Assembly (NCBI RefSeq): GCF_003054265.1
Contig: NZ_QBKT01000003.1
Coordinates: 186,001-250,000, forward strand
Source of the DNA: Kordia periserrulae
Lineage (GTDB): Bacteria; Bacteroidota; Bacteroidia; Flavobacteriales; Flavobacteriaceae
Length of the DNA stretch: 64,000 bases
Direction: 5' to 3'
In this document: positions 9,685-64,000 of the stretch, one piece after another
Position numbering within the stretch: position 1 is the stretch's first letter
How the letters are laid out: every line of letters begins with the position of its first letter
The notes under the pieces: generated by a model
Seen by the model: the letters and a program-made list of their open reading frames with translations, nothing else
Told to the model about the DNA's origin: nothing
Database searches by the model: none
Translations under genes and position numbers: made by a program

Positions 9685-10671
9685 ATGAAACATTTACTCA
9701 TACCTATTTTTATTGTGCTATCCTATAGTGTATTTGGACAAACCGCAAAAGGTAATTCAAATAGTATCCACACAACCCAATACGTGGAAATTGGAGGCGT
9801 AAAACAATTTGTAAGTATCAAAGGGGATAAAAGTAAACCGCTTCTTTTATATCTACACGGTGGGCCAGGAGCGGCTACTTCATCTCATAGGCAACAAATA
9901 ACTAATATATTGGAAACGCATTTTTTAGTTGTTCATTGGGATCAGCGAGGAGCCGGGAAATCAGAGAATAGCAATTTAAAGCCACCAACTTTATCAGAAA
10001 TGAAGCAAGATGCAGAAGAAATTTTAAAATATCTACTAAAAGAATTTAATAAGGATAAAATTGTATTGGTAACCAATTCTTGGGGAACTGTTTTAGGATT
10101 TCATTTAGCATTACATTATCCAAATGCAATAGATGCACTTGTCGCAATTAGTCCTTTAATAGATAATCAAAAAAGTCAACATCTTACAAATAACAAACTT
10201 ATAAGCTACTATAATACACACGACAATATTGAAGCGGTTAAGCAACTTACAGCAGTACACATACCTTATGAAAATGTAGAAGATATGGTAATTCAATTTA
10301 AATGGATAAGCAATTTTAAAGGAACACATATTTCAGATACAGAATTTCAACAGTATATGAAGTTCTTTAAACAATGGGAAAAACAATGGATGCCTCTATA
10401 CAAAGAACTATATGCTATAAACTTGTTAAAAGATAAAACAGTCTTTAAAATTCCTATCTACATTTTAATTGGAGAACACGACTTAACAACAAACGCTGAA
10501 CTTACCGAAGCATTTTTTAAAAAGCTTGAAGCGCCTAAAAAGCAATTGTTTTGGCTGAAAAATGTAGGACACCATATTCCTATGTATAAATCTAATGAAA
10601 TGCAAAACTTAGTAGGTAATATTTTATTAAAAGAAACTACACAAATCAAGCAAAAGCAAAAGCAAAAGTAA
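9685..10671 (+). CDS. Secreted alpha/beta hydrolase, proline iminopeptidase-like
   Basis: This 328-residue protein has a signal peptide (MKHLLIPIFIVLSYSVFGQ) and an alpha/beta-hydrolase core. LLYLHGGPGAATSS is the HGGPG oxyanion motif of the S33 proline iminopeptidase group, VVHWDQRGAGKS is the next conserved strand, and VTNSWGTVLGF is the nucleophile elbow. The elbow has Asn where a Gly is usual before the Ser. IGEHD supplies the acid and NVGHHIP the catalytic His. It probably hydrolyses peptides or amides in the periplasm. The lysine/glutamine-rich tail (KQKQKQK) is unusual. Confidence 0.88.
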   Translation: MKHLLIPIFIVLSYSVFGQTAKGNSNSIHTTQYVEIGGVKQFVSIKGDKSKPLLLYLHGGPGAATSSHRQQITNILETHFLVVHWDQRGAGKSENSNLKPPTLSEMKQDAEEILKYLLKEFNKDKIVLVTNSWGTVLGFHLALHYPNAIDALVAISPLIDNQKSQHLTNNKLISYYNTHDNIEAVKQLTAVHIPYENVEDMVIQFKWISNFKGTHISDTEFQQYMKFFKQWEKQWMPLYKELYAINLLKDKTVFKIPIYILIGEHDLTTNAELTEAFFKKLEAPKKQLFWLKNVGHHIPMYKSNEMQNLVGNILLKETTQIKQKQKQK

Positions 10672-10694
10672 TTTGAGTTGTAAAGTTCTAAATT

Positions 10695-10735
10695 ATAATT
10701 CAAGACGATTCACTTCAATAAATATCTCAACTTTG
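10695..10735 (+). promoter_or_regulatory. Shared 15-base motif plus -7 box, copy 3
   Basis: ATAATTCAAGACGAT at 10695-10709 differs from copies 1 and 2 only by an AG/GA swap. TTTG at 10732-10735 (in CAACTTTG) again starts 37 bases after the motif start. It lies upstream of the gene at 10770. Confidence 0.55.
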
Positions 10736-10769
10736 TGATATCAAATCAAAAAACAAAAAATAGTTACAA

Positions 10770-11372
10770 ATGAAAACAATCAAAAAACAATCTATTCTGA
10801 TGGCATTCGTTGTCTTTATCGTAATGTCTACAATAACTTTCGCGCAAAATAATTCCACAACTGAAATCGCTTCAAAACGTGAAGGTTTTATGTTCGAATT
10901 TGCTGTTGGAGGTGGTATTATAAGCATTGAAGACAGTAAAGGCATTCAAACGTTTGACAAATCGCAAGGAGCTCTGAGCTTTCCTGAATTAAAATTTGGT
11001 TATATGCTAAATGATAAGTTTGCAATAACGGCATCAATACCTGGAATGATTTATGAATTTCAAGACAATGATCGACATTTTGGAGCATTTATTCCTTCCG
11101 TACAATATTGGGTGAAAAATCGTTGGTGGATTCACGGAGGAGTTGGTTTAGCAATTGATTCACCAGCTCTGTATGATATTAAAGATAATGTTAACGATGA
11201 TTGGAATGTTGGCTGTGCTTTTATGGCTAGTACAGGATATGAAATTTATAAAAAGAAAAACTTTGCGTTAAATTTACAATCAAAATTAGTAATGGGGAGA
11301 GCATTTTTAACAGGAAATGCACATAGAGATGTTGTGTCATTCAACATAGGGTTAGGTTTTAGTTGGTTCTAA
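10770..11372 (+). CDS. Secreted outer-membrane beta-barrel-like protein, unknown function
   Basis: 200 residues with a signal peptide (through MSTITFAQ). The mature part is a series of amphipathic strands (GFMFEFAVGGGIISIED, FAITASIPGMIYEF, NRWWIHGGVGLAIDS, FNIGLGFSWF). It ends in an aromatic residue, as expected for an outer-membrane barrel. It resembles generic OmpW/outer-membrane-beta-barrel proteins of Bacteroidetes but no specific family can be named. It is the first gene after motif copy 3 and leads the second serine hydrolase by about 50 bases. Confidence 0.72.
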   Translation: MKTIKKQSILMAFVVFIVMSTITFAQNNSTTEIASKREGFMFEFAVGGGIISIEDSKGIQTFDKSQGALSFPELKFGYMLNDKFAITASIPGMIYEFQDNDRHFGAFIPSVQYWVKNRWWIHGGVGLAIDSPALYDIKDNVNDDWNVGCAFMASTGYEIYKKKNFALNLQSKLVMGRAFLTGNAHRDVVSFNIGLGFSWF

Positions 11373-11421
11373 TAGAAACAAGATAAATTTACAGCCATAA
11401 GAAAAATTTTAAATCACTTCA

Positions 11422-12579
11422 ATGATAAGAAAACAGCAACAAATGAAAAATAATACAATATTCGGTCTATTACTTCTAATTTCACTCTCTTGTTTTGGTC
11501 AAAAAAATGTAAAAGAAGACGTTGAAAAATTGCTGAAAGCCGAATTAAAAAAAGAAACAATTAAAAGTGCTTTTCTACACATATATTCTACCACTAAAGA
11601 AATTGATATTCAGTTGGCAGAAAGTAAAATGAACTCAGGAGATGTTGTATCTATCAATACGCCTTTTTATACCGCAAGTATTACCAAAATGCTAACAGCT
11701 ACCGCAATAGGTATCTTAAAAGATGAAAAAAAATTAAATTTTGAAGACACCATAGCTCAATACTTACCTAAAAAACTCATCAATAAGCTACATGTTTTTG
11801 AAGGTAAAGAATATTCAGAAAGTATCACTATTGCACAATTATTACAACATACTTCTGGCTTACCAGATTATTTTACAGACGCAACAATTGACGGAAGTCC
11901 CAATATCATAAATCAATTGCTTGTCAACACCAATAAATCTTGGTCAGCAGAGGAAATTATTCAATTTACCAAAGAAAAGATGCAATCGCGGTTTGTTCCC
12001 GGTAATGGGTATCATTATAGTGATACGGAATATGTGCTTTTAGGATTAATTATAGAAAAAATAAGCGGTTTGTCTTTAGATGAGTTTTTTAAACAGCATA
12101 TTTTTAAACCGTTAGGAATGAATAGTTCTTACCTTAACTTAAAATCATCTCCTTTAAATAATAAATTGGCAATGGCTGAGTTTTATGTTGGAAACATAGA
12201 GCTGTCTTCCATTAAAAGTTTAAGTGCCGATTGGGGCGGCGGTGGTTTAGTAGCAACAACAAAAGACTTAATACGTTTTTTAGAAGCTTTACGGAAAGGG
12301 CAAATAGTAAGAAAAGAAACGTACTTAGCCATGCAGCAATGGACGCATGAAACAAAGGGAATGAAATATGGCTTTGGCTTACGAAAAGTATCTTTAAACG
12401 AAAAATACAATACATATTCAAACTTTGAACTTATTGGACATACAGGAAGCACTGCATCTTTTTTATGGTATTGTCCGCAATTAGATACATATATAGCAGG
12501 AACCTTAAACCAATTAGAAGCATCTAAAAGCACGCTGAATTTGGTTTATAATATTCTTAAAATAATAAAAAATGAATAG
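11422..12579 (+). CDS. Class C beta-lactamase/PBP-like serine hydrolase, second copy in block
   Basis: This 385-residue secreted hydrolase could start at 11422 or at the internal ATG at 11443; the latter gives a cleaner signal peptide (MKNNTIFGLLLLISLSCFG). Catalytic motifs are SITK (nucleophile Ser, residues 79-82 from the second start), YSD in YHYSDTEY, and HTG in GHTGSTASF. It is not close to the first serine hydrolase in sequence, so it is unlikely to be a recent duplicate. Its 3' end overlaps the S41 peptidase start by 8 bases, showing translational coupling and probably a shared substrate pathway. Confidence 0.88.
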   Translation: MIRKQQQMKNNTIFGLLLLISLSCFGQKNVKEDVEKLLKAELKKETIKSAFLHIYSTTKEIDIQLAESKMNSGDVVSINTPFYTASITKMLTATAIGILKDEKKLNFEDTIAQYLPKKLINKLHVFEGKEYSESITIAQLLQHTSGLPDYFTDATIDGSPNIINQLLVNTNKSWSAEEIIQFTKEKMQSRFVPGNGYHYSDTEYVLLGLIIEKISGLSLDEFFKQHIFKPLGMNSSYLNLKSSPLNNKLAMAEFYVGNIELSSIKSLSADWGGGGLVATTKDLIRFLEALRKGQIVRKETYLAMQQWTHETKGMKYGFGLRKVSLNEKYNTYSNFELIGHTGSTASFLWYCPQLDTYIAGTLNQLEASKSTLNLVYNILKIIKNE

Positions 12580-52089: not shown

Positions 52090-55000
52090 ATGAAAACAGC
52101 AATGAACTTATCAAAAAAGTGGAACTATTTTATACTATGTATAGTAGCTTTTACGACAAGCAATTTATTAGAAGCGCAAACCATAACTTCTATCATGTCC
52201 TCGTATAATGGATATGATATGAATACTGATGGTATAAACGAAATTAATCAATTAACGTATTTACCATTTGAAAATATCTATGAAAGAGTCAACAACAATG
52301 AAAAATTGGTGTTGGTATTGGTTGAAGACAGAATATTGGAAAGCATCACGGGAAGTTCTTTATCGGAACAAGAACTATTAAAAAGACTCGAACAATATAA
52401 AGATGATTTAAAATCAGAAGGATACACGACAAAATTCATAAAAGCCAGTATTTATAATGGTGTAGAACATCAAGACGGGAGAACACTGCTTGCGATACGC
52501 GCCTTCTTAAAAGACATTAAACAGTCTAAAAACTTACAAGGAGTTGTATTGGTTGGTGCATTTCCTGAAGCGATGATTGTGAGGCGATGGATTTGGAGAC
52601 GAAAAAACTGGGACGTTACTATTGACGGAACCGCGTATACAGGAAGTAATCAACGAGATTTTTTAAGAATCGTTCCTGAAATTGTTGCACACAGAGCAGA
52701 TATTGTTTTGGCAGATTTGGACGGGAATTGGGAAAAAATCTATGAAAAAGGTCCTGTAGGTTTAGCATCTATCGAAGCACTTCCTGTAACTGGAACCAAT
52801 ACTAATTGGCCACTATCTGGCATGACATTTACTTCTACAAAATATAATGACCAAGTGAAGTCATTTCAAGATTTTTTCTGGATACAAGATGATAATTTTA
52901 TTCGACTTGATTCACCTAGAGGAGTCCTTAAATTAAAAATTAGAACAACTCAAAGACATCCAGAAATTAGTCGTAGTGATCGAGCGAAACCAAATCCTAT
53001 TGCGAGGCCAGAAATATTTGTGTCAAGAATTAATGCTAGAAACATTGCCGTTTCAACCAATAAAAATTATGTAGACGCAAGCAACCAAGGATTACTAGAT
53101 GCAAATGGAAAGCCTCGAACTCTGGAAACAAATCAAAATTTAAATCCAAAATCATTTTTAATAAAAGATCCAATTACAGAACGTAAAATCCTTATCAATT
53201 ATTTTGATAGAAATCATAGTTACAGAGTAGGTGGTAATCCGTTAAACAGTCATAGAACGGGAGCTGTAAAATTTGGAACAGGTTTAATCAATGCTTCAAA
53301 TCTCAATAATTATCTAAAAAAGGCATCATCAAGCTTTAGTAGTTCTGTTACATATGATGAAGCGAGTTTAGTAGATTATGTAAAATTTTTAAAAACACCT
53401 GCAACCCTCAGAGGGATGTCATCACATTCAGATCCTTGGGGAAGTATATACGATGATTCTTATAATGTAAATGAATTGGAAAATTTAGTAGGAGGGAAGC
53501 CTTGGCTTTGGAAAAAAGAAGCTATTTCAAGCGGATATCGGTATACACCTTCGTTAGTTGGACTCAATGGAAAAGCTGATGCGTATGTGCATAGAACCAT
53601 TTATGAAAACAATATTCTTTCAGGAACGGGAGGAAACCTTTTTATACACAATGGTTGTGAAGTAAACAGTCCTGGAAACGCATCTAAAAGACCTTATAAT
53701 CACAAAGATTACGGTTCTTCTAGCGGACTACAGAATGCAGAAAGTATTTTATTTTTCCTAAATGGAGTTGCTTTGGCTTCACGAGCAAAAGTATTTTATG
53801 ACAAACCAGAAGGCTTTACAGAAGAAATTGGTAAAAATAAAAAGAATCATTTCGGTATAGGTTGGAAAGCATATTTTACCAAAGAATCGAATAATGCTAG
53901 CTTAGCTTCAAATGTTTCTGGAAATAAACGAACTTATACTTGGAGTATTATTGGCGATTGGACTGCTAGAGTTCAGTATGACAATGGACTTGGTATCCTA
54001 AAACTTGAAGGAAACAACTTAAAAAATCATGCAGTACATGCAAATCAAGCGTGGTTTGGTGGCTGGAATTTTGATTCAAAACTCAATGATATAAAGGGTA
54101 AAGGTGATTTTAATGGTGACGGAATTGATGATATTTTGATTAATAGTTCGTGGGGAATCGGAGTATTATCCCGCATTGGAAATCAATGGAAAAGTATTGT
54201 AGTAAAGCCAAAAGATAGTTGGTTTGGTGGATGGCGTTATGGCGTGAATGATAAAATTGAAGCTATTGCAGATTTTGACAATGATGGAAAAGACGAAATT
54301 TTAATTACTAGTAATTGGGGAATTGCCATTTTGAAACTTCAAGGAAACTCATTTAGATCTATAATGGTAAAACCCAATGGAACTCGTTTTGGTACCTGGA
54401 CATACAATAAAACTACGGTGCGCGATAACAAAATAGAAGGTGTTGGCGATTTTAACGGTGATGGCAAAGTTGATATTTTAGTCTCAAAGCCTTACGGAAT
54501 TGGGCTATTAACCTTATCAGGATCTACTTTTCAAAGTATTGTTGTAAAGCCAAATGACACTTGGTTTGGTGGATGGCGTTATGCAGTTAGTAATAAAATT
54601 GAAGCTATTGCAGATTTTAATAATGACGGAAAAGATGAAATTTTAATCACCAGCAATTGGGGAATCGGAATACTGAAACTTCAAGGAAATACATTTAAAT
54701 CAATATTGGTAAAACCCAATGGAACTCGTTTTGGGACGTGGACATACAACACAACTACTGTTCGCGACAACAAAATAGAAGGTGTTGGCGATTTTAATGG
54801 GGATGGAAAAGCTGATATTTTAGTCTCAAAACCCTACGGAATTGCACTATTGACATTATCAAGAACTACTTTGCGTAGTATTGTTGTAAAACCTGTGGGA
54901 ACTCGATTTGGTCAATGGACTTACAACACGCGATACGTACGTGACAACAAGGTTGAAAAAATAGGCGATTTTAATGGGGATGGAAAAGCTGATATCCTAA

Positions 55001-55176
55001 TGTCAAAACCTTACGGGATTGCCTTGTTGAGTCTTTCAGGTGATACCTTTACAAGTTTATATATCAAACAAAATAATAACAAAATAGGAAATTGGCATCT
55101 AAAAGCAACAAATAGTTTTCCTGTTATTGGAAATTTCGATGGACAATCAGGAGAAGAAATCATTATATATAACTAG
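52090..55176 (+). CDS. Secreted gingipain/caspase-like (C25-type) protein with FG-GAP repeats
   Basis: 1028 residues. A signal peptide (through LLEAQ) precedes a large domain with VVLVGAFPEAMIVRRWIWRR and a possible His-Cys dyad: His446 in RGMSSHSDPWG and Cys523 in NLFIHNGCEVNSPG. The spacing fits clan CD peptidases such as C25 (gingipain). Residues about 665-1028 are six FG-GAP/VCBS-like repeats with calcium-binding motifs DFNGDG or DFDNDG at intervals of 54-60 residues. Two tandem repeats (54202 and 54544 onward, offset exactly 342 bases) are nearly identical. No T9SS sorting domain is visible at the end. It is a likely extracellular protease or adhesin. Confidence 0.8.
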   Translation: MKTAMNLSKKWNYFILCIVAFTTSNLLEAQTITSIMSSYNGYDMNTDGINEINQLTYLPFENIYERVNNNEKLVLVLVEDRILESITGSSLSEQELLKRLEQYKDDLKSEGYTTKFIKASIYNGVEHQDGRTLLAIRAFLKDIKQSKNLQGVVLVGAFPEAMIVRRWIWRRKNWDVTIDGTAYTGSNQRDFLRIVPEIVAHRADIVLADLDGNWEKIYEKGPVGLASIEALPVTGTNTNWPLSGMTFTSTKYNDQVKSFQDFFWIQDDNFIRLDSPRGVLKLKIRTTQRHPEISRSDRAKPNPIARPEIFVSRINARNIAVSTNKNYVDASNQGLLDANGKPRTLETNQNLNPKSFLIKDPITERKILINYFDRNHSYRVGGNPLNSHRTGAVKFGTGLINASNLNNYLKKASSSFSSSVTYDEASLVDYVKFLKTPATLRGMSSHSDPWGSIYDDSYNVNELENLVGGKPWLWKKEAISSGYRYTPSLVGLNGKADAYVHRTIYENNILSGTGGNLFIHNGCEVNSPGNASKRPYNHKDYGSSSGLQNAESILFFLNGVALASRAKVFYDKPEGFTEEIGKNKKNHFGIGWKAYFTKESNNASLASNVSGNKRTYTWSIIGDWTARVQYDNGLGILKLEGNNLKNHAVHANQAWFGGWNFDSKLNDIKGKGDFNGDGIDDILINSSWGIGVLSRIGNQWKSIVVKPKDSWFGGWRYGVNDKIEAIADFDNDGKDEILITSNWGIAILKLQGNSFRSIMVKPNGTRFGTWTYNKTTVRDNKIEGVGDFNGDGKVDILVSKPYGIGLLTLSGSTFQSIVVKPNDTWFGGWRYAVSNKIEAIADFNNDGKDEILITSNWGIGILKLQGNTFKSILVKPNGTRFGTWTYNTTTVRDNKIEGVGDFNGDGKADILVSKPYGIALLTLSRTTLRSIVVKPVGTRFGQWTYNTRYVRDNKVEKIGDFNGDGKADILMSKPYGIALLSLSGDTFTSLYIKQNNNKIGNWHLKATNSFPVIGNFDGQSGEEIIIYN

Positions 55177-55209
55177 TGGAACCTAAAATGATTCTACATA
55201 TTCATTAAA

Positions 55210-55429
55210 TTAACGTGAGTTCGACTTAAGAAATCACTATTCAATTCATAATTCGCTGATAAACAAATAATTGTCAGTTCGAGCGCAGTCAAGAACAGCT
55301 AAGAATTGATAATTTCAAAGGAATCTCGTGAGCTATGCTCGGTATCTACGATGATGCTCGATTTGACATTGAGTATAATTTATTAGTAATCAACTACATA
55401 ATAAAATAGTTGTATCAAGCTCACGTTAA
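55210..55429. repeat. MITE-like element with terminal TTAACGTGAG inverted repeats, copy B
   Basis: TTAACGTGAG at 55210-55219 and its exact inverse CTCACGTTAA at 55420-55429 flank 200 bases. Inside, 55274-55371 is the reverse complement of the repeat at 21536-21630: GTCAGTTCGAGCGCAGTC at one end and GATGCTCGATTTGACA at the other. There is no open reading frame, so any transposition would need a helper. Confidence 0.7.
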
Positions 55430-55465
55430 AATATAAAAACGAACTTAGGTTCGTTTTTATATTTT
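55428..55465 (+). terminator. Strong hairpin after the MITE-like element
   Basis: A perfect 17-bp stem (arms AAAATATAAAAACGAAC and GTTCGTTTTTATATTTT) with loop TTAG and a T-run. It overlaps the edge of the MITE-like element and could end the transcript of the gingipain-like gene. Confidence 0.8.
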
Positions 55466-55849
55466 TGGTAGTATCCAAAATCATATAGAATTAATTAAAA
55501 AAAGCACACAATCGAACCCAAAATGTAGGTCTTAAAAGTAGGATACGCTTGTAGCAGAAGTACTACTGTAAATCCGTTATTTTTACACGATTTAAACTTG
55601 CGCTAAGGTTATCTCATCTTTAAAAAATCACAAATTCTATACTTTTTCACACAGGTTGATGTTTTAATTTGTAAATTTAAAAGTAGGGAAATAATTATTT
55701 TTCTTACATAACAAATTCAATAAGAACCAACGTACATTCAGAATTTAATTTTTTAAATTCAAAAAAAGAAGAGAAGATAGTTGAAGCATACGTCATTCTA
55801 CTAGTATCTTAAACATACCATTATGCCATATTAAATCGTACTAAAAATA

Positions 55850-56605
55850 ATGAAAAACACCGATTATTCTAAAATTGCAGATTCCTACAGCGAAAGCAAA
55901 ACACGGCACAATATCAATCCTGACGAACACATCAACAATTTGTTGCAACACAAAAAGAAACTACGCGTTTTGGACGTAGGTTGTGGTACTGGAAATTATT
56001 TGATGAAACAGCAACAATTTTTTGAGGAACGCGGGCAAATCGAATGGTTTGGCATTGATTCTTCGGAAGCGATGTTAGACGTTTTTGCAAAGAATAATCA
56101 ACAAGATACTATTACGATAAAATTGGCGGCTGCCGAAGCGATTCCTTTTGAAGCTAATTATTTTGATTATGTCATTTGCAATCATTCGTATCATCATTTT
56201 GCAGACAAAGAAAAAGCGTTTGCTGAAATTTTTCGTGTTTTGCGAAAAAAGGGCGTGTATTGTATTCATACAATTCATCCCTACGACATGAAAAAATCGT
56301 GGGTATATCAATTTTTTCCAAACGTATATCAAGAAGATATCTCACTATTTTATTCAATGGATAAACTTTTTAGAGCCTTGGAAACTGCGGGATTTAATGC
56401 CGAAATAGAAAAAAGAGTGTTTACGTATCGTCGCAGTATGAAATCCATTCAAGAAGAGGCAAAACTTCGAAATTACTCGCAATTGCAACTTATTTCAGAT
56501 GTAGAATACGAGAATGGTATCATTGCTATTGAAAATTTCATGCAGTTTAACAAAAGTGTCTTAATTGAGCATGCAAAGCTGTATCCGATTGGGTTTAAAA
56601 GCTAG
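55850..56605 (+). CDS. Class I SAM-dependent methyltransferase
   Basis: 251 residues of the UbiE/Methyltransf_11 type. Motif I is VLDVGCGTGNYL, followed by WFGIDSSEAMLDVFAKNN, AAAEAIPFEANYFDYVICNHSYHHF (motif post-I/II) and KKGVYCIHTIHP. The substrate is unknown. It precedes the RiPP cluster by about 295 bases and has no visible link to it, though a role in peptide methylation cannot be ruled out. Confidence 0.88.
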   Translation: MKNTDYSKIADSYSESKTRHNINPDEHINNLLQHKKKLRVLDVGCGTGNYLMKQQQFFEERGQIEWFGIDSSEAMLDVFAKNNQQDTITIKLAAAEAIPFEANYFDYVICNHSYHHFADKEKAFAEIFRVLRKKGVYCIHTIHPYDMKKSWVYQFFPNVYQEDISLFYSMDKLFRALETAGFNAEIEKRVFTYRRSMKSIQEEAKLRNYSQLQLISDVEYENGIIAIENFMQFNKSVLIEHAKLYPIGFKS

Positions 56606-56837
56606 AGAAATTCTTTAAAACTACAGAAAATAGTTTTCCACTTTTCATAGAAACTACATTTTTTTGTAAGGATTTTATAAAATTTAACAATATAATTCTG
56701 TGTTGATATTATGAAGTTTCATCAAAAAGCCTATTTTTACAGTCTACAGATTAAAAAATAATAATACACCTAAAATTACACACAATTATCACATTCAGTT
56801 TATCCTTACTAATAATGAAAGAGCGACTTACAAAAAG

Positions 56838-56883
56838 CTACCCGTAAGTGTAGTAGTGTGTAATCGTCTTTGGTATAACTTTG
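56838..56883 (+). promoter_or_regulatory. Putative dyad and -7 box upstream of the ThiF-like gene
   Basis: CTACCCGTAAGTGTAG (56838-56853) is an imperfect dyad like the one between the LuxR and GNAT genes. TAACTTTG (56876-56883) is an exact TAnnTTTG -7 box, 22 bases after the dyad and 16 bases before the ATG. Confidence 0.5.
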
Positions 56884-56899
56884 TGATAAACCTTAAAAA

Positions 56900-57655
56900 A
56901 TGGAAAGTAGATACGATAGGAATAGAATATACTTGAGCAATCAAGAACAAGAAATTATCAAGCAGTGTCCGATTCTTTTAGGAGGTTCAGGAATTGGAAG
57001 CGTAATTGCCGAGTGTGCTTTACGCTTAGGTTTTGAAAATATTACAATTGTGGATGGCGATCAAGTTGAAACCTCAAACCTTAACAGGCAAAATTACACC
57101 GAAGATGATATTTCTGAGGACAAAGTAAGTGCTATTCAACGACGATTAAAGTCAATCAATAAAAACGCTACGATTGAAGTGCATAATTGTTTTTTGACAG
57201 CAGAAAATGTAGCCGATTTTATTGACGGTCATGAAATTGCTATCAATGCCTTAGATTTTTCTTCGGAAGTACCGTTACTCTTTGACGAAATATGTCAACA
57301 AAAAGGAATTCCTGTCTTACATCCGTACAATTTAGGTTGGGGCGGCTTATTGACGATTATTTCTCCCAAAGGATTGTCGCTCACATCCATTGAGAAACCA
57401 CAAGAAACATTTAACGAAGTCAAAATGGTGGAGTATGCTTCCAACTATTTAAAATTTTGGAGAACGCCACATCATTGGATTGATGAAGTGATAGAAAAAT
57501 ACAAAAAAGAAAAAGGCTCTTTGCCGCCACCACAACTTTCCATTGCTTCGTGGACAGTAGCTGCCATGTGTACGCATATTATGTTTAATATTGCGACAGA
57601 TAAGCATATTAAAACATTTCCAGAGTTTTACCTTTCTACCTTAATGAACGATTAA
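56900..57655 (+). CDS. ThiF/MoeB-like (E1-type) adenylyltransferase, RiPP cluster
   Basis: 251 residues with the E1-like ATP-binding fold: GGSGIG at 28-33, VDGDQVETSNLNRQNY (Asp52, Asn60, Arg63), Lys75 and Asp119 in NALDF. Unlike MoeB it has no CxxC zinc pairs, and no ThiS/MoaD-like partner lies nearby. Relatives such as MccB and PaaA adenylate or otherwise modify ribosomal peptides; others belong to cyclodehydratase systems. It is the first gene of the cluster and its 3' end overlaps the convergent LuxR gene by 4 bases. A peptide-modifying role here is inference. Confidence 0.85.
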   Translation: MESRYDRNRIYLSNQEQEIIKQCPILLGGSGIGSVIAECALRLGFENITIVDGDQVETSNLNRQNYTEDDISEDKVSAIQRRLKSINKNATIEVHNCFLTAENVADFIDGHEIAINALDFSSEVPLLFDEICQQKGIPVLHPYNLGWGGLLTIISPKGLSLTSIEKPQETFNEVKMVEYASNYLKFWRTPHHWIDEVIEKYKKEKGSLPPPQLSIASWTVAAMCTHIMFNIATDKHIKTFPEFYLSTLMND

Positions 57656-58410
57656 ATAAGTTGATTATTGGTAGCACACACAATAGCTTCCGAAATATTC
57701 GCTACATCGAGCTTTTCAAACAATTTCTTTCGGTGAAATTTTACGGTGTCAGGCGACACAAAAATAGCTTCTGCCACTTCATTAATCGTAAATCCACGCG
57801 TAGAATATTGTAAAATTTCTTTCTCTCTACTAGTAAGTTTGATAACTTCTGTTTCTTTCCAAAAATCACCTTCTAAATCGTAGTGAAATACTTTATTATC
57901 TCCTTTTTTATAAATTTTAATATTACCAGCGTCATCTTCTCCAGAAATAGAAATAATACACAATGCTTTCCAAATTTTACCATCCTGCGTTAAAAAAAGC
58001 GGTGTCAACTTTTGGTTGATTAAAATCTTCTTTCCTTCTTGATTTTTCAGGTGATAATCATAAGAAATCGTGTAGTTTTTTCGCTCTGCTACAGGAATTT
58101 TTTCATAAAATTCAAATCCAATCGTATTGATTTTTAGGAGCAAATTTAAGTCAGACTCAATTACATATTTGAAATAAAAGGCATATCCCATTTCTTTTAC
58201 TTCTTGAGAAGTATGTCCGCATAAAAACAGAGGATTGTCAGAAACGTACTCAAATCCTTTCTTTTGATAATCAATAATATAGATGCTTTTATAAGTGGTT
58301 CTTGCAAAAGCCTCTATAGGTTCAAGGTAATTGGATGTCTGTTTTTTCTCTTCGTCAGAAATACCCCCTACAGTATTCCTGAAAGAAAAAAAGTCGTCAA
58401 TTTTTGTCAT
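57652..58410 (-). CDS. PAS-LuxR transcriptional regulator of the RiPP cluster
   Basis: 252 residues. The N-terminal 150 residues look like a PAS fold (ISDEEKKQTSNYLEPIEAF, YIIDYQKKGFEYVSDNPLFLCGHTSQEVKEMGY). The C-terminal LuxR-type helix-turn-helix is TSREKEILQYSTRGFTINEVAEAIFVSPDTVKFHRKKL (from residue 193). There is no receiver domain, so the PAS probably senses a small molecule or light/redox state. It is divergent from the GNAT gene and convergent with the ThiF gene, the usual place for a local cluster regulator. Confidence 0.88.
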   Translation of the reverse strand: MTKIDDFFSFRNTVGGISDEEKKQTSNYLEPIEAFARTTYKSIYIIDYQKKGFEYVSDNPLFLCGHTSQEVKEMGYAFYFKYVIESDLNLLLKINTIGFEFYEKIPVAERKNYTISYDYHLKNQEGKKILINQKLTPLFLTQDGKIWKALCIISISGEDDAGNIKIYKKGDNKVFHYDLEGDFWKETEVIKLTSREKEILQYSTRGFTINEVAEAIFVSPDTVKFHRKKLFEKLDVANISEAIVCATNNQLI

Positions 58411-58424
58411 GGCGGCAATTTTAA

Positions 58425-58464
58425 CAAAGATACCACTTTTTTTTTCACCTACCCTTTTGGGTAG
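58425..58464. promoter_or_regulatory. Bidirectional promoter with a perfect CTACCC/GGGTAG dyad
   Basis: CTACCCTTTTGGGTAG (58449-58464) is a perfect 6-bp dyad with a TTTT centre. On the minus strand TATCTTTG (58432-58425) is an exact -7 box for the LuxR gene. On the plus strand TAAC at 58484 or TACT at 58488 could be a poor -7 for the GNAT gene. Confidence 0.55.
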
Positions 58465-58552
58465 TTTTTATGTAACCAATTCATAACTACTCTTTTGTGT
58501 AAAAAAACTGATAGTAATGCTATTTAGCTTTGAGTGTAAAACATATATAATC

Positions 58553-59233
58553 ATGATACTCTCGAACAATTACTTAGAAAAACTTCAGGAAAACCAAATG
58601 TACAACTTGGCTGAGTTTGTTGTACAGGAAAACTTCAAACATCATTTAGAAAGTAATCTTCCAAGCAATTACAAAAAAGATGTCAGTGATATCTATAAAG
58701 AGGAATTAGATTACTGTAAAAATTCAAAGGTGTTTGTAAGTAAAGACGAACATGGCAACATCTTAGGAGCCATTCGCGTCTTACAATGGAACTTCACAGA
58801 CGTGTTACCACTACAGAAGATTTTTGGAATCAATCCGCTGTTAGTGATTAAAAATCCAAATGTGAATAATATATATCACATTGGGCGTTTTGCGATTAAA
58901 AAAGGAGTGCGCGACATTAATTTACTCAAAAAATTAATGGTACATGCCATTGCTCCAATTTGTCAACACAAAGATAACATCGCTTTTGCAGAATGCGATA
59001 GCAAATTACTTCGCATTTTAAACATCTTAGGTATTAAAACGGATATCATAGGCGAATCTATAGAATATTTAGGTTCTGAAACCATTCCTATTGCCATGAG
59101 CTATGATGGATTGATTGATTTTTACATCAAAAATTTACATCTAGCGGGCAAACTAGACAGCGATGTTATAGATCCATATGTACTTCCAACTAGGAAGATA
59201 GCAACCATACAACCATACAAGTACACTGCATAA
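58553..59233 (+). CDS. FeeM/autoinducer-synthase-like GNAT acyltransferase
   Basis: The frame is open from 58517 (MLFSFECKTY), but the ATG at 58553 is preferred, giving 226 residues. The pattern SKVFVSKDEHGNILGAIRVLQWN, NIYHIGRFAIKKGVRD and ILGIKTDIIGESIEYLG matches N-acyl amino acid synthases and LuxI-like GNATs, which move a fatty acyl chain from ACP or CoA to an amine. In selidamide-type RiPPs a GNAT fatty-acylates a Lys or Orn of an NHLP core, so the precursor at 60020 is one possible substrate. The other option is a signal-molecule synthase. It is 21 bases upstream of the AraC-like gene. Confidence 0.8.
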   Translation: MILSNNYLEKLQENQMYNLAEFVVQENFKHHLESNLPSNYKKDVSDIYKEELDYCKNSKVFVSKDEHGNILGAIRVLQWNFTDVLPLQKIFGINPLLVIKNPNVNNIYHIGRFAIKKGVRDINLLKKLMVHAIAPICQHKDNIAFAECDSKLLRILNILGIKTDIIGESIEYLGSETIPIAMSYDGLIDFYIKNLHLAGKLDSDVIDPYVLPTRKIATIQPYKYTA

Positions 59234-59254
59234 TCATTTTAAAGAACCATAACC

Positions 59255-59914
59255 ATGAATAATTTAAATGTTAATAACATTGATTGGAGTTCTTCAGAAA
59301 TGTTGATGCAATTCGTAAAGGAAATCAAAGCACCTTTGGATTCCATTATTGAAGCCAATCAAAAACTATCAAAGGGTACGATAGTAACAACACAAGACAA
59401 TACGAGCGATATCATTTTTTCGAGCAGTCAACAAATTGCTAGTTTAATAGAAAAAGTGGTACAACGCGCAAGTACTGACACAACAACCGAAAATCTACCG
59501 CTGATTTACCAAATATACTACAGTAATGAGCGCGTACAATCGATGTGCAAACAAGAAATCAACCCAAACAAAATCTCTAAACAAGATGCCAAATGGTTGA
59601 TGGAGTTGGAAAGCGAAGTCTATAAAAATATCAAACACAAAGACCTTAATTTATACGATTTGTCCTATAAATTAGCGGTAAGTGAACGCCAATTGCATCG
59701 AAAAATAAAAAGTTTGCTACATCTTACACCAAACAAGTACATTAGAATACTGCGGTTGCACAAAGCCAAGCAATTTATTGACGATTATATTTACGATACC
59801 ATTTCGCAAATATCGTATGCAGTAGGCTATTACGATACGCACTATTTTTCAAAACTGTTCAATCAGCAATATGGTGTGTTTCCAAAAGAACTTCTAAAAG
59901 CTAGAAGACTTTAA
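59255..59914 (+). CDS. AraC-type HTH protein with degenerate histidine-kinase dimerization region
   Basis: 219 residues. Residues 18-75 (QFVKEIKAPLDSIIEANQKL, then SSQQIASLIEKVVQ) look like a HisKA dimerization helix pair, with KEIKAPLDS standing where HELRTPLNS is usual, so the phosphate-accepting His is a Lys. Residues about 115-219 are an AraC helix-turn-helix (LYDLSYKLAVSERQLHRKIKSLLHLTPNKYIRILRLHKA and ISYAVGYYDTHYFSKLFNQQYG), as at the C-terminus of hybrid two-component sensors. It has no receiver, ATPase or sensor part. It follows the GNAT gene and probably regulates this cluster. Confidence 0.85.
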   Translation: MNNLNVNNIDWSSSEMLMQFVKEIKAPLDSIIEANQKLSKGTIVTTQDNTSDIIFSSSQQIASLIEKVVQRASTDTTTENLPLIYQIYYSNERVQSMCKQEINPNKISKQDAKWLMELESEVYKNIKHKDLNLYDLSYKLAVSERQLHRKIKSLLHLTPNKYIRILRLHKAKQFIDDYIYDTISQISYAVGYYDTHYFSKLFNQQYGVFPKELLKARRL

Positions 59915-59951
59915 AAAAAAATAGTTGCAGCTCTTTATTTTGGTGTTCTTG

Positions 59952-59995
59952 TCGTCTTTTTGGCAGTTTCGTACGCATGGTAACAATTACATTTA
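59952..59995 (+). promoter_or_regulatory. Putative promoter of the NHLP precursor, shared TTGGCAGTTT word
   Basis: TTGGCAGTTT at 59960-59969 is followed by TACATTTA (59988-59995) as a weak -7. The same word with the same 28-base offset occurs upstream of the export operon at 60516. The left arm (TCGTC) of a possible dyad is poor. Confidence 0.4.
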
Positions 59996-60019
59996 CAAGT
60001 ACATAAACCCTCTAAAAAA

Positions 60020-60370
60020 ATGGCACTAACAGAACAACAAAAAGCACAATATTTCCTTACAAGTATTTATAAAAAAGCTTGGGAGGACAGCGTATTCAAA
60101 AAGAATCTTATCAAAAACCCTTTAGAAACGCTCAATACATTTACGGGAAAAGAAGGGAAAATCCCAGAAGGAAAAATACTCGTAGTAGAAGACCAAACGA
60201 ATCCAAACCATATTTATCTAAATATACCTGCAAAACCAAATAATTATGGGAATACCGAACTTAGTGACAATCAATTAGAAGACATCTCAGGAGCTTCAGA
60301 TTCTGTGACTGCTATTGATTGGAACTACGTCGTACAGGGAATAAAATCCGTTGTGCGAAGTTGGTCTTAA
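60020..60370 (+). CDS. NHLP-family RiPP precursor peptide
   Basis: 116 residues with no Cys. Residues 1-80 are the nitrile-hydratase-alpha-like leader (MALTEQQKAQYF, AWEDSVFKKNLIKNPLETL, PEGKILVVEDQTNPNHIYLNIP), then ELSDNQLEDISGA ending in the Gly-Ala (91-92) cut by NHLM-type peptidase transporters. The predicted core (93-116) begins SDSVTAID and ends SVVRSWS. It has five Ser, one Thr, one Lys (109) and one Arg, two Trp and one Tyr. Without Cys, lanthionine or thiazole formation is not possible. It is followed by a strong terminator before the export genes. The modification is unknown. Confidence 0.92.
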   Translation: MALTEQQKAQYFLTSIYKKAWEDSVFKKNLIKNPLETLNTFTGKEGKIPEGKILVVEDQTNPNHIYLNIPAKPNNYGNTELSDNQLEDISGASDSVTAIDWNYVVQGIKSVVRSWS

Positions 60371-60389
60371 TGCTTTTAAAAAGCTGCAC

Positions 60390-60429
60390 AAATAAAAGGT
60401 ACATTCTGTAAAAAATGTACCTTTTATTT
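60390..60429 (+). terminator. Terminator between precursor and export genes
   Basis: A perfect 16-bp stem (AAATAAAAGGTACATT / AATGTACCTTTTATTT) around an 8-base loop, with more T following. It lies 20 bases after the precursor stop, so the precursor is probably transcribed alone and at higher level than the export operon. Confidence 0.88.
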
Positions 60430-60507
60430 TTTTACTCGATAATCGAGATTGAACATACACCGACGCTTGCCTCGAAATAGTTGACTACAATCCTATGTCA
60501 TTTTCCT

Positions 60508-60551
60508 CTGCCTCATTGGCAGTTTTCAACCCTTTGCAAAACATACCTTAG
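60508..60551 (+). promoter_or_regulatory. Putative dyad and -7 box of the export operon
   Basis: CTGCC-TCATT-GGCAG (60508-60522) is a perfect 5-bp dyad; TTGGCAGTTT (60516-60525) overlaps it. TACCTTAG (60544-60551) is a weak -7 located 21 bases after the dyad, the same distance as at the precursor promoter. Confidence 0.45.
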
Positions 60552-60578
60552 TGCTAACTAATATTTAATACAAAAAAT

Positions 60579-61097
60579 ATGAAACGCGTACTTTTTCTAT
60601 TAGGTCATTTGAGTGATTTAGATATTGAATGGATGATCCACAATGGTAGTAAAGCTGAACTAGAAGTTGGGGACCGATTAATTAAAAAAGGAGAGGCAAT
60701 AGACAATTTATACATTGTACTTTCTGGACAATTATCCATCACCGACGGTACTAGTGACAAACACATTGCTTTACTCGGAGCTGGAGAAATTGTTGGAGAA
60801 ATGTCTTTCTTAGAATCAAGACCGCCATCCGTTTCTGTAATTGCTTCCAAAGCCACGACAGTATTTTGTATTTCCAGAGAATTAATGAATAGCCGTTTGG
60901 CAAACAACTTAGAATTTAGAGCAAATTTCTACTACGCTATTTCGCTATTCCTATCCAACCGATTACGAAAAACAACCAGTCAATTAGGGTATGGTTCGCC
61001 AGAAGAAGCAGACTTAATAGACGAAAATGTGCTGGATGGAGTTTCGCAAGCAGGCTCACGATTTGGACAAATTTTACAAAAATTTTCAGAAGTATAA
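60579..61097 (+). CDS. Cyclic-nucleotide-binding-domain protein without a DNA-binding domain
   Basis: 172 residues. Residues 15-135 form a cNMP-binding jelly roll: LEVGDRLIKKGEAIDNLYIVLSGQLSITDG, then GEIVGEMSFLESRPPSVSVIASKATTVFCISRE, where GEMSFLESRPPSVSV is a good phosphate-binding cassette (Glu and Arg present). There is no helix-turn-helix; the C-terminus is helical and acidic (EEADLIDENVLDG). It could sense cAMP or cGMP and act on the exporter. It lies 12 bases before the TolC gene and is probably its cotranscribed partner. Confidence 0.87.
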   Translation: MKRVLFLLGHLSDLDIEWMIHNGSKAELEVGDRLIKKGEAIDNLYIVLSGQLSITDGTSDKHIALLGAGEIVGEMSFLESRPPSVSVIASKATTVFCISRELMNSRLANNLEFRANFYYAISLFLSNRLRKTTSQLGYGSPEEADLIDENVLDGVSQAGSRFGQILQKFSEV

Positions 61098-61108
61098 ACC
61101 GCCTCAAG

Positions 61109-62677
61109 ATGAATAACAAAATTGTACTCCTAAGTTTGCTAGTGTTTTCCGTATGTATCTCGTACGGACAAAACACAATTCCTGCGGATATTGTTACACT
61201 ATCTGAACTTACCTTTGGTACAAATCCAATAATCAAAAGAAACATCTTAACGGTTTCAAACGCAGAAGGAGGATTAAAAATTCAAACTAGCGCGTTTGAC
61301 TATCAATTAACTTCAGGTTTGTCACTCACCAGAAACAACTTAAATCCTTTTGAAGCGGATCCGCGCAGTAGTTTCCTTACGGGAGATTTAAACTCTAGGT
61401 TCACAGGTGCTTCTGTGGGATTGCAACGTAAATTTCGTTCTAGTTTTACGGTGAACCTTTCGGTAGATTATACCATGATGAATGACAATTTTCCACTCAA
61501 CCGATTCAACCAAGATGTAGGCGCATTTACACAAGAACACATTGTAACAAGTACGCTTTCACTTACGCAACCTTTACTTCGTGGAAGAGGAAAAAAAATA
61601 GCAACCGCACTAGAAGAAGCGTCAAAGCTAAATTTAGAAAGTGTAGATGACAACGCCGAATTCGCCAATTCCTTCGAATTATTACAATTGGGTACGGCGT
61701 ATTGGCAATATGTGGCTGCGTATAAAAGCTTAGAAGTTTTTGAGCAAAATGAAGCTAGAGTGCGACGTGTATTAGAAATTACGCAAGAACTTGTAAAAGC
61801 CGATAAAAAACCTGCGGGCGACTTAGCACAAATTCAGGCGGATTTGGCAAGTCAGGAACGACAAACCAAAGTCGCTGAGCAAGCATTGTACAGTGCCAAA
61901 CTAAACTTAGGACGCGTTATAGGTATCAGTGAAGAAGAAAGCAAACGACTGGGAAATCCAGCCGATGAATTTCCTTCCATCATTGAATCTGGTTATGTCA
62001 ACAATTTGAATATCGACGATTTTAAAGAAATTGCACAAAATAATCGACTGGACATCATTGCCGCGAAAAAAACGCAAGAAGCCATCGAATTACAACTCAA
62101 TTTAGCGCAAAATGACAAACAACCACAACTCGATTTAACGGGTTTTGTCAGTTATGGCGGAATGAATATGGGAAATGGTTTGGATAGAGCATTGGCTACT
62201 TTTTCACGCAATGAAGGAAGAGATGTCGGTTTTGGACTGGGATTGCGTTTCTCCTTTCCTGTCAACAACAACTTGGCAAGAGGTAGATTCATTCAAAATG
62301 AAGTGGCTTTCAAAGATCAAGAAATTGCAAATAAGAACTTGCAGCGAAACATAGATCTAAATGTGTCTATTGCAATGAACAACTTAGATAACAGTGTGTT
62401 AATTCTTGAAAAAGCATTGGAATCACTCGAATTCTATCAAGAAGTATTCAACAATGAGCAAGTAAAATTTCAAAACGGACTCACAACACTGTTGAATCTT
62501 ATCTTATTTCAAGAACGTTTAACCTTTGCACAACTCGATTATTTACAAGCGCAGCAACAATTTGCCAACGCAATCATCAACCTTCGATACGAAACCGGAA
62601 CGCTGTTGTTAAAAAAGGACAACAGCACGGCAGTAAACATAAATAGAGAATTGTTTTACACAATTCCAAGCAATTAA
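61109..62677 (+). CDS. TolC-family outer-membrane efflux protein of the RiPP exporter
   Basis: 522 residues with a signal peptide (MNNKIVLLSLLVFSVCISYG). The TolC helices are present in two repeats: TLSLTQPLLRGRGKKIATALEEASKLNLE and LGTAYWQYVAAYKSLEVFEQNEARVRRV in the first, and FKEIAQNNRLDIIAAKKTQEAIELQLNLAQNDKQPQLDLTG and FRLSFPVNNN-like strands in the second. It makes the outer-membrane channel for the NHLM exporter. It is followed by the HlyD gene after 23 bases. Confidence 0.9.
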   Translation: MNNKIVLLSLLVFSVCISYGQNTIPADIVTLSELTFGTNPIIKRNILTVSNAEGGLKIQTSAFDYQLTSGLSLTRNNLNPFEADPRSSFLTGDLNSRFTGASVGLQRKFRSSFTVNLSVDYTMMNDNFPLNRFNQDVGAFTQEHIVTSTLSLTQPLLRGRGKKIATALEEASKLNLESVDDNAEFANSFELLQLGTAYWQYVAAYKSLEVFEQNEARVRRVLEITQELVKADKKPAGDLAQIQADLASQERQTKVAEQALYSAKLNLGRVIGISEEESKRLGNPADEFPSIIESGYVNNLNIDDFKEIAQNNRLDIIAAKKTQEAIELQLNLAQNDKQPQLDLTGFVSYGGMNMGNGLDRALATFSRNEGRDVGFGLGLRFSFPVNNNLARGRFIQNEVAFKDQEIANKNLQRNIDLNVSIAMNNLDNSVLILEKALESLEFYQEVFNNEQVKFQNGLTTLLNLILFQERLTFAQLDYLQAQQQFANAIINLRYETGTLLLKKDNSTAVNINRELFYTIPSN

Positions 62678-62700
62678 AAAAACACTAAAAACATAAAATC

Positions 62701-63969
62701 ATGGCAGCAGGATTTTTTAGAAAAGCAGCAGTTGAAAAACTCTCAACACCCGAAAAATTAGATCAGTTAATCAAAGTCACTAGCCCAAGAGGCTGGATAG
62801 CATTGATAACGATTACACTCATTTTAGCAACTGGAATTATTTGGGCATTTTTTGGGAATGTAAAAACAAAGCTCAATGTCGTTGGTGTCCTATTGGGAGG
62901 AGAAATTCATGAAGTAGTGGCAACTTCTCAAGGACAACTCATTAGTTTAAACGTCGCTATTGGCGATGTAGTCAACGAAGGCGATGTCATCGCAACGGTT
63001 GAGCAACCAGAATTATTTCAACAAATTGAAGAAGTAAAAGCGTCATTAGAAGAACGCAAATTTGATTTGCAACAATTGCTGTCGTTTGGAAATCAAGATA
63101 CGCGTTTGCAAAGCGAACTCATTCAGCAACAGCGTACCACAATCGTAATGCAAATTGAGTCTGAAAAGAAAAACTTAGAATTTCTACGAAATCAATTAGA
63201 CACCGAAAAAGGATTGTTGGCGCAAGGACTCATCACGCGTACGCAAGTAGTGAATACGGAGCAACAAATTGAAGCTTCTATCAATACGATAGAAAGTTTA
63301 AAAGGACAACAAGTACAAACATCGAGTCGAAAACTCAATCTCGGATTTGATTTGCAACAAAAAATAAACATGAGCAAACAGCGTATTGCAGAAACAGAAC
63401 GACAACTAAGCTATTTGCAAGAACGATACGATATCCAAACAAATATAAAAAGCGCATACACTGGCGAAGTCGTTGAATTGCTCACAGATGCAGGTGTGAT
63501 TGTGCGACAAGGAAGTCCGTTGTTCAAACTAAAAAATCAAAATCAACTGACGGCAGATACTAACAAACTACGCGGCGTCTTATACATTCCGTCACAAGAT
63601 GGTAAAAAAATCAAGGAAGGTATGGAAGCGCTTGTGGTTCCTTCAACAGTTCAGCCACAAGAATACGGTTTTATGAAAGGAAAAGTAACCTATGTATCGG
63701 ACTTTCCAATCACACAAAAAGGAATGATGATGACCGTTAAAAATGATCAATTAGTGCAAGGATTGTTGTCGCAAGGTGCCTTATTTGAAGTATATGTTGA
63801 ATTTGAAAAAGATGAAAACTCATACAGTGGTTTCAAATGGACATCTGCCAAAGGGCCAGAAATTGCCATCAATGAAGGAACTTCCTGTATGGGGAAAATT
63901 ACGGTAAAAAGTGAACCGCCAGCAGCAATTGTAGTACCTGCGTTGAAAAAATTCTTTGATCTCTATTAA
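62701..63969 (+). CDS. HlyD-type periplasmic adaptor, NHLM export system
   Basis: 422 residues. One transmembrane helix (GWIALITITLILATGIIWAFFG) at about 32-53 anchors it, followed by a biotinyl-lipoyl-like half (VVATSQGQLISLNVAIGDVVNEGDVIATVEQPELF), a long coiled coil (about 115-250, rich in Gln and Leu) and the second half-lipoyl motif (IKSAYTGEVVELLTDAGVIVRQGSPLFKLK). This matches NHLM-type HlyD proteins that link the peptidase/ABC transporter with TolC. It follows TolC on the same strand, with the next frame starting 13 bases after its stop. Confidence 0.9.
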   Translation: MAAGFFRKAAVEKLSTPEKLDQLIKVTSPRGWIALITITLILATGIIWAFFGNVKTKLNVVGVLLGGEIHEVVATSQGQLISLNVAIGDVVNEGDVIATVEQPELFQQIEEVKASLEERKFDLQQLLSFGNQDTRLQSELIQQQRTTIVMQIESEKKNLEFLRNQLDTEKGLLAQGLITRTQVVNTEQQIEASINTIESLKGQQVQTSSRKLNLGFDLQQKINMSKQRIAETERQLSYLQERYDIQTNIKSAYTGEVVELLTDAGVIVRQGSPLFKLKNQNQLTADTNKLRGVLYIPSQDGKKIKEGMEALVVPSTVQPQEYGFMKGKVTYVSDFPITQKGMMMTVKNDQLVQGLLSQGALFEVYVEFEKDENSYSGFKWTSAKGPEIAINEGTSCMGKITVKSEPPAAIVVPALKKFFDLY

Positions 63970-63982
63970 AAACCAACACACC

Positions 63983-64000
63983 ATGTTCGAAGTAAAAGAA
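63983..64000 (+). CDS. Start of the next gene, probably the NHLM peptidase/ABC transporter (truncated)
   Basis: Only ATG TTC GAA GTA AAA GAA (MFEVKE) is visible. In NHLM clusters an ABC transporter with a peptidase domain that cuts after Gly-Ala usually follows HlyD. The identity is inferred from position only. Confidence 0.35.

Follow-up and report, generated by a model that had tools for sequence, protein, structure and literature searches.

A 64,000-nucleotide stretch of the Kordia periserrulae genome (contig NZ_QBKT01000003.1, positions 186,001 to 250,000; G000:C3:186001-250000, with G000 denoting the host genome), hereafter called the window, carries near its right edge genes for a ThiF/E1-like adenylating enzyme (E1), a PAS-LuxR regulator (LuxR) and a GNAT-fold protein (GNAT), placed in front of a peptide export cluster of the NHLP/NHLM type. 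E1, LuxR and GNAT make up a cassette that is conserved in Bacteroidota and precedes many different natural-product operons. We propose, with a probability of roughly 0.6, that GNAT and E1 make a cyclised N-acyl amino acid that is sensed by LuxR, rather than modifying the peptide, and that the three genes thus constitute a self-contained signalling cassette before the export cluster. A preliminary description of this region had taken E1 and GNAT to be the visible peptide-modifying enzymes. Both do lie in the cluster, but the role given to them there is disfavoured, because the cassette stays constant, with LuxR, in front of unrelated operons; in addition, the operator is shared with the LuxR gene, and NHLM genes are rare in the family in which E1 and GNAT occur. 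The cassette and its promoters comprise the following features.

56838..56853, unstranded: LuxR-type operator CTACCCGTAAGTGTAG at the E1 promoter, one of just two strict sites across 4.73 Mb
56876..56883, plus strand: -7 box TAACTTTG of the Bacteroidota type in the E1 promoter, at 30 base pairs (bp) from the operator centre
56900..57655, plus strand: ThiF/E1-like adenylating enzyme, which would act as cyclase in the signal pathway (Pfam ThiF, 109.1 bits)
57652..58410, minus strand: PAS-LuxR (GerE) regulator, convergent with E1 and divergent from GNAT (Pfam GerE and fold comparison)
58449..58464, unstranded: upstream operator CTACCCTTTTGGGTAG in the LuxR-GNAT gap, a strict site
58487..58502, unstranded: operator CTACTCTTTTGTGTAA at the GNAT promoter, with the -7 box 30 bp away
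58525..58532, plus strand: -7 box TAGCTTTG of the GNAT promoter
58553..59233, plus strand: GNAT with a FeeM/acyl-homoserine lactone (AHL)-synthase-like fold, predicted N-acyl amino acid synthase (start moved from 58517)

For GNAT, the ATG at 58553 is the more likely start, since 58517 lies upstream of the -7 box at 58525 and the relatives begin at 58553.

To describe the distribution of the cassette, 63 GNAT loci were gathered from genome contigs with a profile of five GNATs and exact peptide patterns. Nearly all are titled Bacteroidota; one contig is titled Zambryskibacteria and is probably misbinned. The closest named relative, Kordia sp. TARA_039_SRF (L058), shows 93–98% protein identity across the cassette and export genes. 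LuxR is divergent from GNAT and adjoins it in 61/63 loci. E1 is found within the fetched locus in 53 cases: in 46 it faces LuxR tail to tail at a distance within 180 bp, and in the other 7 it lies ∼7 kb upstream. Ten genomes have no E1 in the locus, and 8 of them carry a relative elsewhere (53–66% identity), which brings E1 to 61 of the 63 genomes. Loci with NHLM genes number 18, and 7 more contain only NHLP, DUF7005 or AraC relatives. The remaining 38 have none of these, in the sense that none was recognised by BLAST with the host cluster proteins (HlyD or cyclic nucleotide monophosphate [cNMP]-binding protein, >100 bits; ABC, >50% identity; any NHLP or DUF7005 match; AraC, >100 bits); distant C39 ABC transporters did not count as NHLM, and the short contigs L064, L066, L073 and L085 are among the 38.

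What lies behind the cassette varies considerably. We found LanB/LanC lanthipeptide genes with several GG precursors (L069), radical SAM enzymes (L067, L089, L115), C39 ABC exporters (L075, L114), a NusG-like gene with a phosphopantetheinyl transferase (L080) or a 2411-amino-acid non-ribosomal peptide synthetase (L074), and an operon encoding HTTM, DCC1-like and ABC proteins (L062). The last of these apparently belongs to an uncultured Tenacibaculum (G329), whose NHLM region showed no GNAT, LuxR or E1 and whose cassette sits elsewhere, before this other operon. Among 397 genomes of the family, E1 occurs in 14 and GNAT in 13, with both in 13 (P = 2e-23); the sole E1 genome without GNAT is G233, whose fetched locus ends ∼30 bp after E1. 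By this co-occurrence, the E1-GNAT pair tracks itself, not NHLM. In the same set, the NHLM transporter ABC2 is present in 4/397 genomes and DUF7005 in 3/397, always adjoining ABC2. Four of the genomes (G006, G008, G137, G329) are apparently the same records as L058, L113, L096 and L062, respectively, and so are not independent of those loci; the G137 region first examined ended before E1, which L096 shows. Pairwise distances of E1, LuxR and GNAT are correlated (Mantel 0.80–0.86, 53 loci), but kinship among the species confounds this measure, which is not used as support.

The promoters of the cassette share a palindrome, CTACACN4GTGTAG. A match of at least 10/12 was seen in 54 of 61 LuxR-GNAT gaps, compared to 0.44 expected from dinucleotide shuffles. 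The Bacteroidota -7 consensus is TAnnTTTG, and such a box lies exactly 30 bp from a site centre in 43/61 GNAT promoters, with 1 more at 29 bp. In E1 promoters, the box is 30 bp from the best site in 28/53 cases (in two of which the best site scores 7/12) and 29 bp away in 2 more; when only boxes 8–60 bp from the best E1 site are considered, 28/30 fall at 30 bp. Paired sites, where present, are mostly 38–39 bp apart. The strict form, CTACNCN4GNGTAG, occurs in the host genome only at 56838–56853 (E1) and 58449–58464 (LuxR/GNAT). Because operators and a fixed geometry are common to both promoters, E1 and GNAT look co-regulated, and the position of the sites fits an activator that would bind directly upstream of the promoter.

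Structure comparison of the predicted GNAT model indicates a fold like those of FeeM and the AHL synthases, with FeeM as the top match and AHL synthases, tied with generic GNATs, among the other matches. Identity to the N-acyl amino acid synthase FeeM (PDB 2g0b) is ∼10%, and family matches are very weak (FeeM, 14.4 bits versus a cut-off of 27; TIGR03694, 20.7 bits versus 111.95). A relationship to LuxI was also sought by sequence and was rejected, as no PDB sequence matched the GNAT profile at E up to 10. In many of the loci L058–L120, GNAT has a shared C-terminal end, LP[KE]SVVFN...NYSLV, or else -YTFV or -Y[ST]A. This tail is disordered in the window model and is perhaps a degradation signal; action of E1 on it is ruled out by E1 loci without such a tail (L080, L084, L115, L116, L119).

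The window E1 is 69% identical to the solved chain 9egb, and the conserved adenylation Asp of E1 lies in the stretch NALDF. PDB entries 9EGB, 9EGC and 9EGD, titled THIF-type NAD/FAD binding fold domain-containing protein, represent an E1 orthologue (453 bits to the profile) that is 97% identical to the E1 of Tenacibaculum larymnensis; no paper naming these entries was found in a literature search. For LuxR, Pfam matches are confined to GerE and a sub-cut-off Sigma70_r4, the Pfam scan did not match an Autoind_bind domain, and the N-terminal domain is PAS by fold, with LOV structures among its matches in the structure comparison. VqmA, the receptor of 3,5-dimethylpyrazin-2-ol (DPO) quorum sensing in Vibrio, likewise combines PAS with a LuxR-type helix-turn-helix and was matched across both domains, albeit with ∼16% identity and a large root-mean-square deviation between domain settings. 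The synthesis genes of the VqmA-DPO system differ from those of the cassette, and the gene setting of FeeM differs as well.

Two known kinds of system can be compared with the cassette as a whole. As in LuxI/LuxR, a GNAT-fold protein, here a predicted acyl synthase, is divergent from a LuxR regulator, with a palindromic operator by the synthase promoter and the layout of a positive loop. Unlike in LuxI/LuxR, the predicted synthase is FeeM-like with no LuxI sequence match, the receptor is PAS by fold without Autoind_bind, and an E1 enzyme is added. In the N-acyl oxazolone pathways OxzAB, TyzACB and TrzAS, an amino acid N-acyltransferase gene adjoins a ThiF-like cyclase gene (PMC12856293), an arrangement to which GNAT and E1 may correspond. 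TrzA acylates Trp, the ThiF domain of TrzS cyclises with ATP, and a saturated product forms when the oxidase is blocked; the authors note the AHL likeness, and oxazolones are opened by acid and by methanol (PMC12856293). The cassette differs from these pathways in its stand-alone E1, its PAS-LuxR with an operator, and its occurrence in Bacteroidota. The cassette pairs a FeeM-like GNAT with a ThiF protein, which would act as N-acyltransferase and cyclase, respectively.

The signalling cassette could thus work as follows. GNAT, judged by its fold, would join an acyl group to an amino acid. E1 would adenylate the carboxylate of this N-acyl amino acid, leading to cyclisation to a small lactone-like product, e.g. 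a saturated N-acyl oxazolone, by analogy with OxzAB/TyzACB/TrzAS. As the product accumulates, it would be bound by the PAS domain of LuxR, a role suggested by the fold. LuxR would then bind CTACACN4GTGTAG by the E1 and GNAT promoters, where operator and geometry are observed, and would activate both in a positive loop. Read-through from GNAT into the downstream AraC gene, plus AraC itself, would switch on the export cluster; in other species, the cassette faces other natural-product operons.

A number of observations weigh against this scheme. In the structure comparison, FeeM is 1.2 Z units above the next row, AHL synthases are level with generic GNATs, and GNAT folds are common; at E 0.01, no Pfam family matches the window GNAT (from 58553). 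The known oxazolone pathways include a flavin-dependent oxidase, but no such family was found among the scanned proteins of the locus. The exact peptide patterns behind the 63 loci miss divergent forms. No recognisable GNAT accompanies E1 and LuxR on a Riemerella plasmid. The strict palindrome is not commoner in the genome than its reversed control (2 versus 5 occurrences), and hence the place of the strict sites, not their number, counts as evidence. In the host genome scan, neither AraC nor the export genes had a strict operator, and the cluster would therefore be coupled via read-through. A -7 box at 29–30 bp is missing from 17/61 GNAT and 23/53 E1 promoters, and the spacing is reported without a shuffle control. 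E1 lacks both a site of at least 10/12 and a box at 30 bp in 7 Flavobacterium NHLM loci, where it is ∼7 kb away, and again in 5 loci with DUF7005 but no NHLM. Finally, gene linkage, co-occurrence, operator, geometry and predicted folds come directly from the data, while the product, its binding by LuxR and induction are what we infer from them.

The alternative that survives best is that LuxR is a plain pathway regulator sensing some other cue (light, redox or a metabolite), with E1 and GNAT making a lipid-like end product, such as a stress-linked oxazolone, that is co-expressed with the clusters and is not a signal. PAS domains sense many cues, and LOV structures appear among the PAS matches here. 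For the known oxazolones, the TrzAS authors call the role unresolved, and stress links are proposed (PMC12856293). We nevertheless think this alternative unlikely: operators stand at exactly the two synthesis genes, in one fixed geometry, and the placement of the cassette before many different operons is easier to reconcile with a signal than with a single shared end product.

Somewhat more doubtful still is that E1 and GNAT tailor the NHLP peptide, GNAT by lipidating a side chain in a selidamide-like manner and E1 by activating a peptide carboxylate, as MccB, PaaA, GrcB and EnfB do. GNATs that lipidate precursor Lys or Orn in selidamides and nostolysamides (PMC13060382) and the action of ThiF-like enzymes in several pathways to ribosomally synthesised and post-translationally modified peptides (RiPPs; PMC12250964) give this idea precedent, and the NHLP protein by AraC keeps Gly-x-Lys in the four cluster-bearing genus genomes. 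However, this candidate Lys is not kept outside the genus; the window GNAT is a single domain of 226 amino acids, with no tandem GNAT fold as described for NpuN; and E1, LuxR and GNAT are constant while the outputs vary, including a non-ribosomal peptide synthetase operon and other non-NHLP operons in 38/63 loci. That this is a plain proteusin/LanM-dehydratase RiPP cluster with ordinary local regulators, the cassette being its neighbour by shared ancestry of cluster edges, would suit the conserved NHLM cluster order but is very improbable given the diversity of cassette outputs, the operator geometry conserved across families, and the G329 genome, in which NHLM region and cassette are apart.

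A stronger version of the signalling proposal can be put forward only tentatively. E1-LuxR-GNAT might be a complete acyl-signal quorum-sensing system native to Bacteroidota, with its own architecture beside LuxI/LuxR, whose product would be an oxazolone, or a homoserine lactone if the amino acid is homoserine, and whose PAS-LuxR would activate its own synthesis genes and many natural-product clusters. Bacteroidota are commonly held to be without LuxI-type acyl signalling. AHL production has been reported in Tenacibaculum maritimum with no AHL synthase gene found in the genome (PMC5561996); T. maritimum is not among the cassette loci listed, and this report serves as context only. If true, our proposal would assign a function to N-acyl oxazolone-type chemistry and might account for the AHL-like activities reported in flavobacteria that lack LuxI. 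Because the GNAT-E1-LuxR cassette is widespread, apparently autoregulated and equipped with an explicit operator, it opens both the AHL puzzle and the role of oxazolones to direct test, and the cassette or its 16-bp operator could serve as a search handle for silent natural-product clusters of Bacteroidota, with the product as inducer. Among the papers listed in our literature searches, which covered titles and abstract starts mostly outside subscription journals, none described the cassette. The 9EGB deposit indicates that another group has E1 in hand, and a description may exist elsewhere in the literature.

Related arrangements of these genes were also observed. Tight GNAT-E1 operons of divergent sequence occur in L144/L158 (G043) and L145/L159 (G329), with an overlap of 8 bp or a gap of 7 bp and no LuxR in the 1.5-kb flanks; the G329 operon adjoins a LytTR response regulator and a histidine kinase. 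In L094, L095, L097, L098 and L112, E1-LuxR-GNAT is followed by a core-less NHLP protein (86 amino acids) and DUF7005; the flanks that were fetched showed no recognised NHLM genes. On Riemerella anatipestifer plasmid NZ_CP081938.1 (L160), E1 and a helix-turn-helix regulator stand tail to tail with operator-like sites, and no GNAT remnant was found around E1-LuxR of one such plasmid (of four records). Vibrio sp. plasmid pTHAF191d_b (L161) has an E1-like gene at 4995–5741 (41% identity over 60% of the query), directly after a 388-amino-acid frame without a family match; the GNAT profile detected no GNAT upstream of it.

Family profile scans placed all eight genes named in the preliminary description where it had put them. 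Beyond the cassette, the window contains the following.

59255..59914, plus strand: AraC-type regulator, 21 bp 3' of GNAT, likely relay to the export cluster
60020..60370, plus strand: NHLP-leader protein, atypical precursor (TIGR03793, 49.9 bits, slightly below the cut-off of 50.9)
60579..61097, plus strand: cNMP-binding bacteriocin-transport-associated protein, TIGR03896-like (118.9 bits, below the cut-off of 161.05)
61109..62677, plus strand: TolC/OEP outer-membrane channel (family match)
62701..63969, plus strand: NHLM HlyD adaptor (TIGR03794, 322.5 bits versus a cut-off of 156.2)

The cluster was expected to run past the right edge, and it does: further export genes, precursors and enzymes lie beyond 64000 (L009, C3:249000-268000, covers this extension). 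In order, these encode an NHLM ABC1 with a C39 peptidase (TIGR03796, 1072.6 bits), ABC2 (TIGR03797, 866.7 bits), DUF7005, a GAF-PAS class III nucleotide cyclase, an NHLP precursor, a TPR class III cyclase, four NHLP precursors, a small hydrophobic protein of 76 amino acids, a UDP-type glycosyltransferase and a 512-amino-acid LanM dehydratase domain. HlyD, ABC1 and ABC2 are all of the NHLM type and above cut-off, which bears out the NHLM transporter anticipated downstream. The five downstream NHLP-leader precursors score above cut-off and the sixth (60020) slightly below, and GG-type sites are present. An apparent absence of LanM from the window proved to be an artefact of its edge.

The LanM domain matches TIGR03897 with 319.8 bits over positions 50–519 of 932, aligns to LicM2 over 81–511, and retains the DFHxEN, LIDxET and RPTxVY stretches, which we take to be catalytic. 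The protein ends at 512 amino acids with only DUF4135 matched, and no LanC-type cyclase domain is present in it. The four LanC-like matches in the genome are all on other contigs (C10, C2, C7, C1) and probably mark further lanthipeptide clusters; one lies in a 975-amino-acid frame, probably a full LanM. Cys is absent from all six cores of the host genome and one core has neither Ser nor Thr, which fits a dehydratase without a cyclase acting on only some of the precursors. Across all loci, Cys occurs in 32 of the 102 cores parsed, a set of partly overlapping records that excludes 20 further NHLP proteins in which no GG-type site was recognised.

Within the genus, ABC2 is above cut-off in 4/11 genomes, and the order E1-LuxR-GNAT-AraC-NHLP-cNMP-TolC-HlyD-ABC1-ABC2-DUF7005-cyclases-precursor array is kept in G005, G006 and G008, in line with the conservation that the preliminary description had looked for. 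The LanM domain was found in G000, G006 and G008, but the 40 kb surrounding the cluster of G005 contain none; the one in G137 is distant (31%), and in G329 a split LanB-type dehydratase and a JmjC protein adjoin the NHLM cluster. The cluster resembles proteusin-type NHLP/NHLM clusters in its NHLP precursors, HlyD, ABC1, ABC2 and cNMP protein. It differs in that its dehydratase is a cyclase-less LanM domain, and in having two class III cyclases, DUF7005 and a glycosyltransferase. In the polytheonamide pathway, PoyF is a stand-alone LanM-type dehydratase. A proteusin-like cluster from Kordia has been reported (PMC10734526). We therefore regard as solid, from predicted gene content, that this is a complete NHLP/NHLM peptide export cluster of a RiPP kind already known, and that the novelty lies in the cassette in front.

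A single NHLP gene lies between AraC and the cNMP gene in 16/18 NHLM loci. Seven of these 16 proteins are without a GG site, yet the C-terminal motif TD[YF]xx[LI]Y[DN]SL is kept. The NHLP protein at 60020 may thus not be an ordinary precursor but perhaps an accessory protein.

The two class III nucleotide cyclases (L009:7234-9378 and 9848-11815) share the cluster with the cNMP-binding export protein, and both are kept in the four cluster-bearing genus genomes; cNMP-gated peptide export is possible. DUF7005 (PF22541, L009:6108-7295) keeps HExxH and a following IADY segment in 10/10 sequences compared, an alignment from which G006 was excluded by an open-reading-frame overlap filter. It gave no significant match to PDB by sequence; it looks like a zincin, and its occurrence tracks NHLP/NHLM genes. 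An Rfam scan of 55000–64000 returned no match at gathering scores. After the NHLP gene (60390–60490 of the window) lies an inverted-repeat element, of which ∼29 similar ∼50-bp copies are found elsewhere in the genome as a dispersed intergenic repeat family.

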